In this document: one piece after another, positions 55,124 through 59,280 of the stretch
How the letters are laid out: the number at the start of each line of letters is the position of its first letter
Position numbering within the stretch: the stretch's first letter is position 1
Assembly (NCBI RefSeq): GCF_009882935.1
Contig: NZ_WTVA01000003.1
Span: forward strand, 346,715-410,714
Source of the DNA: Sneathiella chungangensis
Lineage (GTDB): Bacteria; Pseudomonadota; Alphaproteobacteria; Sneathiellales; Sneathiellaceae
DNA length: 64,000 nucleotides
Direction of reading: 5' to 3'
Notes under the pieces: generated by a model
What the model saw: the letters and a program-made list of their open reading frames with translations, nothing else
What the model was told of the DNA's origin: nothing
Databases searched by the model: none
Program-made: the position numbers and the translations under genes

Positions 55124-55309
55124 GTCGCAGTTCCGTTGTTATTCTTATTGTTCGTTCTGTAAAAAAGATTACCTATTCCATAGCAGGCTCGCCCGCGCTT
55201 TGCCAGTGCTATCCAACTGGACAGGCGGGGCGGGGCGCTGTAAAACAGCGGGCCTGACTTGATTAACGGAAAAATTGGCGCCCCGGCCCAAGGTGATGGT
55301 GTTCGCAAG

Positions 55310-57991
55310 ATGAGTACAACTAAAGAAATCCGCAGCTCCTTTCTGGACTATTTCGCGAAGAACGGCCATGAAAAGGTGGAGAGCTCGCCGCTGGTGCCGC
55401 GCAATGATCCGACCTTGCTGTTCACCAATGCCGGCATGGTGCAGTTCAAGAATGTCTTCACCGGACAGGAAAAGCGGCCCTATAACCGCGCGGTAACGAC
55501 GCAGAAATGCGTCCGCGCGGGCGGCAAGCATAACGACCTTGAAAATGTCGGTTATACCGCGCGCCATCACACCTTTTTCGAGATGCTGGGGAACTTCTCC
55601 TTCGGCGATTATTTCAAGGATCGCGCGATCGAGCTTGCCTGGAACCTGCTCACCAGGGAATTCGGCCTGCCCAAGGATAAGCTGCTGGTCACCGTCTATC
55701 ATGACGATGACGAGGCGGCGGGGCACTGGAAAAAGATCGCCGGCCTGCCGGACGAGAAAATCATCCGCATCGCCACCTCCGATAATTTCTGGTCGATGGG
55801 CGATACCGGTCCGTGCGGGCCTTGCTCCGAGATTTTCTTTGATCACGGAGAAGGGATTCCCGGCGGCCCGCCCGGCAGCGCCGATGAGGATGGGGATCGC
55901 TTCATCGAGATCTGGAACCTCGTGTTCATGCAGTTCGAGCAGTTCGCCGAGGGGCGCCGCGAGAATCTCCCGCGTCCGTCCATCGACACCGGCATGGGGC
56001 TGGAGCGGATTACCGCCGTCCTCCAGGGCAAGCATGACAATTACGATATTGACCTGATGCGCCATATCATCGAAGCCTCGGCGGAGGTATCGGGCGTCGA
56101 TCCGGACGGGGAGTTCAAGGTCTCCCACCGGGTGATCGCCGATCACCTGCGCTCGTCTTCCTTCCTTGTCGCCGATGGCGTGCTGCCATCGAACGAGGGA
56201 CGGGGATATGTGCTCCGCCGGATCATGCGCCGCGCCATGCGCCATGCGCATATGCTGGGCGCAAAAGACCCGATGGTCTATAAACTCGTGCCGACGCTGG
56301 TGGACGAGATGGGCGATGCCTTTCCCGAACTCAAACGCGCGCAGTCGCTGATTACCGAAACCTTGAAGCTGGAGGAAAGCCGCTTCAAGGAAACCCTCGA
56401 TCGCGGTTTGAAACTGCTCGGCGATGCGACGGGCAAGCTGGGCGGGAATGATCCGCTTCCGGGCGATGTCGCCTTCAAGCTCTATGATACCTACGGCTTC
56501 CCGCTTGATCTCACGAAGGATATCCTGCGCGGCCAGAACCGCGACCTTGATGAGGCCGGCTTCGATGCCGCCATGAAGAAACAGAAGGAGGCCGCCCGCG
56601 CCGCCTGGTCCGGCTCCGGCGAAGCCGCGACGGATGCGCTCTGGTTCGACCTCCATGAAAAGCTCGGCGCCACCGAATTTCTCGGCTACCAGACAGAGGT
56701 TGCCGAGGGCAAGGTCCAGGCGATCATCAAGGACGGCGAAGAGGTTGAGAAGGCCGCCCAGGGTGATGAGGTGAAAGTCGTCCTCAACCAGACGTCCTTC
56801 TACGGCGAGAGCGGCGGTCAGGAAGGCGACCACGGGATGCTCAAGATCCAGGACGGTTTCGCCATGGTCGTCAAGGACACCCAGAAGAAACAGGACCTGT
56901 ATATCCATGTCGGCCAGATCGCCAAGGGCGAGCTGACGGTCGGCGACGTCGTCGAAACCCATGTCGATCACCGCCGCCGGTCGCGCCTGCGCGCCCATCA
57001 TTCGGCGACCCATCTGCTGCATGAGGCGCTGCGCCAGACGCTTGGGCCCCATGTGACGCAGAAAGGCTCGCTGGTGGCCGAGGACCGCCTGCGCTTCGAC
57101 TTTTCGCACCAGAAGCCGGTGACGGAGGCCGAACTGGCGGAGATCGAGCGGGCGGTGAACGACCGCATTCGCCTCAATGCCGATGTCGAGGTTCAATTGT
57201 CGACGCCGGAGGAGGCGATCAAAGCCGGTGCGATGGCGCTGTTCGGCGAGAAATACGGCGATGAAGTGCGCGTTGTCTCCATGGGCGGGCCGGATGCGCA
57301 CAAGGGGGCGGGCCGGAATTACTCGACGGAACTCTGCGGCGGCACCCATGTCGGGCGCACCGGCGATATCGGCTTTCTCAAGATCGTCAGCGAAGGCGGC
57401 CTTGCCGCCGGCGTCCGCCGGATCGAGGCCGTGGCAGGAGAAGCCGCACTCGACTATGTCAATGCCCGCGAGAAACTGCTGAGCGAGGCGGCGGCGACCC
57501 TGAAAATCGCGCCGCAGGAACTTGGCAACCGCCTTCACGGCCTTCTGGAAGAACGCAAGAAGCTGGAGCGCGAACTCGCCGATACCCGCAAGAAGCTGGT
57601 GAGCGGCGGGGGCGGCGGCGCAGCGGAGGCACCCGAGCAGGTCGGTGATGTCGCCCTGATGGCGCGGCTGCTCTCCGATGTGCCGCCGAAGGACCTGAAG
57701 CCCATGGCCGACGAGATCAAGAAGCAGCTGAAAAGCGGCGTCATCGTCCTGATCAGCAGCAACGAGGGCAAGGCCTCCATCGTCGTCAGCGTGACGGAGG
57801 ATCTGACCGGGCGGATAAGCGCGGTCGATCTGGTGCGCGCGGGCTCCGAGGCGCTGGGCGGCAAGGGCGGCGGTGGCCGTCCCGACATGGCGCAGGCCGG
57901 CGGACCGGACGCAAGCAAAGGCGAGGATGCCGTCACCGCAATCAAGGGCCTGATCGCGAAACAGGCGTCCGGCGAAGTTGCGGCGGGCTGA
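55310..57991 (+). CDS. alaS: Alanine--tRNA ligase
   Basis: An 893-residue class II synthetase, normal length. Motif 1/2 region [13 protein letters not shown] is near residues 30-42. The editing domain has H-S-A-T-H near 563 and the zinc/cysteine motif L-C-G-G-T-H near 674. The C-Ala domain ends with a Gly-rich [15 protein letters not shown] segment. The start at 55310 (M-S-T-T-K-E-I-R) matches homologues; a longer frame begins at 55259. Confidence 0.97.
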
Positions 57992-58010
57992 CGCTCAGGA
58001 ATAATGGACA

Positions 58011-58047
58011 AATAAAAAAATCCGGCAGGCGCGTGTCCCGCCGGATT
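58011..58047 (-). terminator. Rho-independent terminator, leftward
   Basis: The arms AATCCGGCAGG (58019-58029) and CCCGCCGGATT (58037-58047) form an 11-bp stem with one mismatch. On the minus strand the hairpin is followed by TTTTTTTATTT. On the plus strand it follows alaS but lacks a T-run, so the orientation favours ending a leftward transcript. It may still weakly terminate alaS. Confidence 0.6.
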
Positions 58048-58165
58048 GTACGCGACCGGTTAATCGACAATGCTGCCCCGCGTCCATCGGGGTAGAATGG
58101 GGCGGGGCAGCACGCCTCCCTTTGACTTGCCGGCAGCCAGTAACTCTCTGACTAACCGGTAAAGC
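58011..58165 (-). ncRNA. Candidate structured small RNA with intrinsic terminator
   Basis: In the alaS-htpX gap, the minus strand shows nested inverted repeats. An outer 8-bp stem pairs 58160-58153 with 58062-58055 (ACCGGTTA/TAACCGGT). An inner perfect 11-bp stem pairs 58112-58102 with 58081-58071 (TGCTGCCCCGC/GCGGGGCAGCA), with a palindrome TGCCGGCA between. They are followed on that strand by a terminator hairpin and T-run. No open reading frame fits. I do not recognise an Rfam family; the 5' end and promoter are not determined. Confidence 0.45.
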
Positions 58166-58242
58166 GCCATTTGATGGTTGGTTGTGGCCAAAAAGGGGCG
58201 TTTTCGAGGTTATTTTATGACGCCCAAATTTCGCGACGCCGC

Positions 58243-58272
58243 TTGATATCGGGCGAAATCACTACATATAAA
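58243..58272 (+). promoter_or_regulatory. Probable htpX promoter
   Basis: TTGATA (58243-58248) and TATAAA (58267-58272) are separated by 18 bases, about 34 bases before the htpX ATG. The sequence CTTGAT...CATATA also resembles a heat-shock sigma factor (RpoH) promoter, which would fit htpX. Confidence 0.5.
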
Positions 58273-58305
58273 AGACGCCTGTAAAGGGTTGTTTGGGGTT
58301 GTGTG

Positions 58306-59280
58306 ATGAACTATTTCAAGACCGGATTACTGATTGCCGCGATAACGGCGCTGTTCCTGGCTGTCGGCTTTCTGCTCGGCGGGGCGCAGGGCATGCTGAT
58401 CGCCCTCGTGATCGCGATCGCCATGAACGGCTTCGCCTACTGGAATTCCGACAAGATGGTCCTCAAGATGTATGGCGCCCGACAGGTGACCATGAGCGAC
58501 GCGCCGGAGCTTGTCGGCCTGGTCAAGGAGCTGGCGGATCGTGCGGGCCTGCCGATGCCGAAGGTCTTCATCATGGACAATCCGCAGCCCAACGCCTTCG
58601 CGACGGGGCGGAACCCGGAGAATGGTGCCGTTGCCGTCACCCGCGGTATCCTGAAAATCCTGACCCGGGAGGAGCTCGCCGGCGTTCTCGCCCATGAGCT
58701 TGCGCATATCAAGAACCGCGATACCCTGACCATGACGGTGACCGCGACGATCGCCGGCGCGATCAGCATGCTCGCCAATTTCGCGTTTTTCTTCGGCGGC
58801 AGTCGCGATAACCGCGGCGGGATCATCGGCACCCTCGCCATCATGATCCTCGCGCCGCTCGGCGCCATGCTGGTGCAGATGGCGATCAGCCGGACGCGGG
58901 AATATTCGGCCGACCATACAGGCAGCGAGATTTGCGGAAATCCGGAATGGCTGGCAAGCGCGCTTCAGAAACTGGAGCGGGGCGCGCGCGGGATCGAGAA
59001 TGTCCAGGCGGAGCGTAATCCGGCCTCTGCCAGCCTGTTCATTGTCAATCCGTTGCATGGACAGGGGGCGGATAACCTGTTCTCGACCCATCCCGCGACG
59101 GCGAACCGCGTCGCCCGGCTGATGGAGCTGGCGAAAACGATCGTGCCGACCCGGACAAGCCGCCCGTCGGCAAGCCGCTACGCGAGGCCCGACAGCGGCG
59201 GAACATCTGCGCCGCGCGGAACGACGCCCTATACGGACAGACCGGCGGGCAAGGCACCGAAGAAGGGGCCCTGGGGCTGA
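58306..59280 (+). CDS. htpX: Membrane zinc protease HtpX
   Basis: A 324-residue M48 metalloprotease of membrane quality control. Two hydrophobic segments occupy residues about 5-45. The zinc motif H-E-L-A-H is near 132-136, and a second pair of hydrophobic segments lies at about 145-190. R-E-Y-S-A-D-H near residue 198 supplies the third ligand. The C-terminus is longer than usual, with a basic, Pro/Ser/Arg-rich tail after residue 280. ATG at 58306 is chosen over the adjoining GTG. Confidence 0.94.

Follow-up and report, generated by a model that had tools for sequence, protein, structure and literature searches.

The gap downstream of alaS in Sneathiella chungangensis very probably encodes a small non-coding RNA that has escaped cataloguing and is kept across most of the genus. 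Its conserved structure, its likely strand, its place beside alaS and its conserved core motif all emerge from genome comparison: a structured RNA lies next to alaS in 19 of the 21 alaS-bearing Sneathiella genomes (10 with one form, one of them decayed, and nine with a second), alaS itself having been found in 21 of the 24 genomes of the genus. To judge from sequence, this is a genus-level small RNA family, which would add to a little-studied genus a family absent from Rfam 15, in two diverged forms that share one core. We consider it, on balance, probably a leftward sRNA of ~130–190 nt that would end at an intrinsic terminator and act in trans as an Hfq-type regulator via its purine-rich core. 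The earlier note had proposed a leftward small RNA in the window (the whole stretch of 64,000 nucleotides that was analysed); comparison bears out a short leftward unit, and lends no support to the outer stem, the antisense role or the argument from the terminator that came with it.

The alaS–htpX gap measures 311 bp, alaS ending at 57991 and htpX starting at 58303 (GTG) or 58306 (ATG), as read from the sequence and its open reading frames (Table 1). Of the span 58011–58300 first assigned to the small RNA, only the left half is filled by it, the right half holding the likely htpX promoter, which was not picked up by a consensus promoter scan and might be of the heat-shock type. The RNA was also supposed to be antisense to both flanks, which is wrong because it lies between the two coding sequences and overlaps neither; it could pair only with the alaS 3' UTR or with alaS–htpX read-through RNA.

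Table 1. Features of the alaS–htpX region, in window coordinates
Feature	Position	Strand	Basis or remark
Structured RNA as matched by R1; 5' end could be further upstream	58009–58168	−	covariance model R1
5' hairpin H1, CCGGU 58159–58155 with GCCGG 58134–58130	58130–58160	−	group A alignment
Core AAGUC-AAA-GGGAGG, unpaired in group A consensus fold	58115–58128	−	core pattern in 18/18 intact copies
Hairpin H2, 11-bp perfect arms	58071–58112	−	covariation in group A
Linker, including 3' arm of outer repeat (58055–58062) and GUCGCGUA	58048–58070	−	alignment A1
Intrinsic terminator, 11-pair stem 58047–58019, T7 58014–58020	58014–58047	−	window sequence and group A alignment
Conserved CATAAAATAACC-like block upstream of RNA, possible −10 region	58208–58219	−	alignment of 10 group A gaps
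alaS	55259–57991	+	convergent neighbour of RNA; Pfam PF01411, E 1.2e-221
htpX	58303–59280	+	divergent neighbour of RNA; Pfam PF01435, E 1.3e-38
Likely htpX promoter, TTGATA-N18-TATAAA, outside RNA	58243–58272	+	sequence and conservation in group A gap alignment

The nested inverted repeats claimed for the gap are there, and both are exact: the outer 8-bp arms pair ACCGGTTA (58055–58062) with TAACCGGT (58153–58160), and the inner 11-bp arms pair TGCTGCCCCGC (58071–58081) with GCGGGGCAGCA (58102–58112). Dinucleotide shuffles of the gap produced a perfect inverted repeat of at least 11 bp once in 300, and one of at least 8 bp 117 times in 300, so the outer repeat alone carries little weight. The strong hairpin with a T-run on the minus strand only was likewise confirmed, since the leftward hairpin carries seven T and no plus-strand run of at least five T occurs in the gap. 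Among the three terminator-like sites detected in 57500–58800 (shuffle mean 1.3), this leftward one ranks first. The step from a terminator alone to a transcript is not supported. On the minus strand, 58010–58165 folds at −74.7 kcal/mol (z −5.22, with 0/200 shuffles as good), and over 58010–58220 the z-score is −4.77 on the minus strand versus −2.55 on the plus strand.

Gaps extracted from 18 htpX-bearing genomes were sorted into group A (n = 9: G000, G001, G002, G007, G012, G019, G020, G021 and G022), with which G017 aligns as an apparently decayed copy, and the founding set of group B (n = 5: G004, G008, G011, G014 and G023); the gaps of G010 and G013 fit neither group well, and in G003 alaS was absent from the stretch taken around htpX. 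Group A RNAs are built of H1, an open core, H2, a linker and a terminator. In H1, ACCGGUUAG is invariant in all nine sequences and 95.6% of cells are paired, with zero pairs showing a double change. H2 is different in kind, 8 of its 10 consensus pairs being changed on both sides, and the terminator stem is 98% paired with double changes in 6 of 11 pairs; compensatory change, a test set beforehand, is thus found in both the inner hairpin and the terminator. Excluding the terminator, group A has 91.7% of cells paired and eight double-change pairs (each reached by 0/500 shuffles), all eight in H2 and none in H1. As a conserved element the 8-bp outer stem fails: it has no double-change pair, and its pairs 11/168 and 14/159 are broken in seven and four of the nine sequences, respectively. 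The minimum-energy fold of the S. chungangensis RNA (G000) includes this outer stem, which competes with H1. The linker GUCGCGUA reads GUAGCGUA in several relatives in alignment A1. As a side observation, the G012 copy (L017 1713–1930) has an additional insert, itself forming a stem, that separates H2 from the linker.

The group B architecture consists of P1, a mini-hairpin around AGUC, P2 and a terminator. Without the terminator, 90.8% of its cells are paired (0/500 shuffles) and six pairs show double changes (1/500), counts that, as in group A, are favoured because these alignments, read on the minus strand, also served to predict the structures. Slid controls score lower on every measure in both groups. 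Single-sequence minus-strand z-scores lie between −4.25 and −6.27 in group A and between −4.63 and −7.71 in group B; when the last 45 nt are removed they become −4.07 to −5.34 in group A and −0.97 to −3.56 in group B, where four of nine lie above −2, and much of the group B folding signal is the terminator. What unites the two forms is the core, which reads AGUC-N(2-3)-GGGAG in the nine group A copies and AGUC-[A/U]-CUCGGAGG in the nine group B copies, so that AGUC followed by GGGAG or CUCGGAGG is present in 18/18 intact copies; G010 shows GGUCACAGGGAG. The decayed G017 copy (L016 2627–2785) has lost the core and the T-run, and its body has ceased to fold better than shuffles (z −0.71; whole copy −3.32), a joint loss that is expected if these parts form one unit. 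Common descent of groups A and B is probable, judging from their shared core and terminator and their common position next to alaS, and is not proven because neither of the covariance models built on them convincingly finds the other form.

These models, R1 (nine group A sequences) and R2 (five group B sequences), define the spread of the RNA within Sneathiella. A similarity search found similar DNA in 11 of 60 genomes (the window's own among the 60), all of one genus, the match in G011 being only 40 bp long and away from its alaS. R1 scores at least 73 bits in 10/24 genus genomes, with G017 lowest, and 147.9 bits on the window RNA (G000:C14:404723-404882, one of R1's own nine rows); below these come G013 at 26.3 bits and then several weaker matches restricted to the model's terminator end. 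R2 reaches at least 64 bits in 9/24, among them the additional G018, G006, G003 and G016, and below these lie a match on another contig of G006 (33.7 bits) and G010 (22.3 bits). Since the model-building sequences match by construction (9/10 for R1, 5/9 for R2), the five remaining matches are those from outside the models. The second R2 match in G006 (L090, G006:C131:374-492, 33.7 bits) resembles coding sequence by eye.

The gene alaS adjoins all 19 strong matches. In a tree of AlaS fragments (midpoint-rooted, with G001 and G008 partial), group A plus G013 forms a supported set (97/99), and group B is not shown to be a single clade. Some lineages seem able to do without the RNA, because G013 keeps little besides a terminator (26.3 bits with R1, 17.5 with R2) and G010 only a weak version (22.3 bits with R2, body z −0.25). 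On the other side of the RNA the neighbourhood varies. The intact copies face htpX directly in 13 of 18 cases; a search for htpX at E <= 1e-30 gave nothing in G018 (99% complete), G006 (84%) and G016 (56%), in all of which the RNA is kept beside alaS, and in G003 htpX is separated from the RNA, which again stays beside alaS. A leftward gene lies upstream of the RNA in G003 and G016 (thiC) and in G018 and G006 (tetR-type), and a leftward frame is seen by eye in G023. In G003 a TPP riboswitch (L024 1265–1374, minus strand, 70.6 bits) precedes thiC, the leftward gene that lies between htpX and alaS. In G008, alaS was matched as two overlapping pieces in different frames (L121/L122), which points to a frameshift or an assembly error.

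No Rfam family accounts for the RNA. Rfam 15 gave no match in the window at gathering score, and a permissive search (to E 10) gave seven sub-gathering matches, none supporting a family at the RNA locus; at E <= 1, the 17 relative loci yielded the TPP riboswitch (L024) and a sub-gathering MS2 match (L026), neither at the RNA. The best-ranked weak match, anti-hemB (Burkholderia RNA 7, RF02837), shares hairpins and a U-tail with the alaS-adjacent RNA; it scores 16.9 bits against a gathering cut-off of 49.5 (E 0.16) and is not among the matches of the 17 relative loci at E <= 1. The 6S RNA (RF00013), above cut-off in 20/24 genus genomes, is similar in length and likewise a stand-alone structured RNA, but it has no match in the window and occupies a separate locus (G000:C14:21189-21347), and was rejected as a candidate.

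Searches in genome, viral and plasmid contigs and in 337 genomes of the class found no convincing relative outside Sneathiella. An exact pattern scan of genome contigs returned seven stretches, taken as the loci of G012, G019, G002, G020, G021, G007 and G001. Viral contigs and plasmids gave no match. Over the 337 class genomes, run with stricter filters that lose weak matches, R2 matched three genus genomes only and R1 gave four non-genus matches at E <= 0.001: in L072 it is chiefly the linker and terminator that match, in L073 the match sits on the end of a protein-coding frame, and the remaining two are confined to the terminator end (model positions 109–154 or 118–154). R1 does not match the alaS locus (L120) of G024, which represents the sister genus; by eye a leftward coding frame occupies the place of the RNA there. 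A literature search, with most subscription journals outside its scope, returned no report or RNA-seq of this RNA, and text searches in PMC3927594 and PMC2873474 (no occurrence) and in PMC2704228 (two passages) turned up nothing on it.

How might such an RNA work? It is a conserved structured intergenic RNA with an intrinsic terminator, as trans-acting sRNAs are, and Hfq is encoded in 22/24 genus genomes. The RNA would be transcribed leftward over ~130–190 nt from its own promoter and end at the terminator, which lies immediately beyond the stop codon of alaS; Hfq would bind its U-tail, H1 and H2 would hold the purine-rich stretch open, and this stretch (AAGUC..GGGAGG) could then pair in trans with pyrimidine-rich sites in target mRNAs. 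By analogy, it resembles the Hfq-dependent trans-encoded sRNAs of alphaproteobacteria (AbcR etc.), which are also intergenic, terminator-ended and endowed with a conserved single-stranded stretch. AbcR-like sRNAs carry C/U-rich anti-Shine–Dalgarno stretches, unlike the alaS-adjacent RNA, whose conserved stretch is purine-rich and which matches no family; such a core would be unusual beside them. Natural decay in G017 and near-loss in G013 make the function of the RNA directly testable.

The alternative that survives best, a possible though doubtful one, is that the leftward RNA acts in cis by pairing with the alaS 3' UTR or with alaS–htpX read-through, tuning mRNA ends or read-through. The constant presence of convergent alaS beside all 19 strong copies fits this idea, as does the lack of a rightward run of five T in the window's gap, but simple synteny may explain the linkage to alaS, genomes with htpX unmatched still have the RNA, and full antisense pairing needs neither the fold nor the core motif that are conserved. 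It is less likely that the hairpin merely terminates stray leftward transcripts or those of a leftward gene upstream, the rest being a by-product. Such a gene is found upstream in 5 of the 18 intact copies (G003, G016, G018, G006 and G023), G013 keeps the terminator nearly alone and group B bodies fold only modestly; against this, the other 13 intact copies face htpX directly, H2 covaries and no intact copy lacks the core. Rather improbable, though of wider reach, is a Shine–Dalgarno mimic, in which GGAGG would act on CCUCC-bearing RNA generally, that is, on the anti-SD end of 16S rRNA or, as a sponge, on C/U-rich anti-SD-type sRNAs; if true, this would make the RNA a genus-specific global regulator of translation.

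On sequence evidence the minus strand is the likely functional one. Because a G-U pair turns into an A-C mismatch when the opposite strand is read, an excess of G-U points to the strand in use, and G-U outnumber A-C cells by 23 to 3 in group A (10 to 2 in H2 alone, 6 to 1 in the terminator) and by 23 to 6 in the nine group B sequences, counts that prediction on the minus strand also favours. Quite unlikely, then, is a functional plus strand (an alaS 3' UTR element or an htpX leader), for which it can be said that both strands fold better than shuffles, that the plus z is slightly lower than the minus in 4/18 intact copies (G021, G019, G002 and G008) and that the group A consensus energies are near-equal (−40.12 minus, −39.45 plus). 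The group B energies are not (−42.36 minus versus −32.99 plus), the T-run in the window is on the minus strand only and genomes with no htpX match retain the RNA next to alaS.

A small protein, with GGAGG as its ribosome-binding site, is very unlikely: there is a 43-aa minus-strand frame at 58060–58191, but by eye an early stop cuts the matching frame short in G019, G007, G021 and G022, the G008 frame after GGAGG ends after three codons, and the changes in the hairpins preserve pairing. Titration of CsrA via the GGA motif, for which the conserved GGGAG or GGAGG would speak, is refuted as far as the search reaches, with CsrA (PF02599) in 0/24 genus genomes and the same search positive in 3/14 control genomes.

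As for the 5' end, no convincing sigma-70 promoter pair is present in the window's own form and none recurs convincingly among the nine of ten group A genomes scored (G001 left out), where conservation upstream of the RNA is limited to a CATAAAATAACC-like block. Among the 10 sequences of group B plus G010, a promoter-like TTGAT[A/C]-N16/17-TAGCTT ends 9–11 nt before the modelled RNA in three (G003, G016 and G010), TAGCTT having been admitted as a −10 word after being seen, and by eye G011 offers TTGTTC-N17-TAGCTT.
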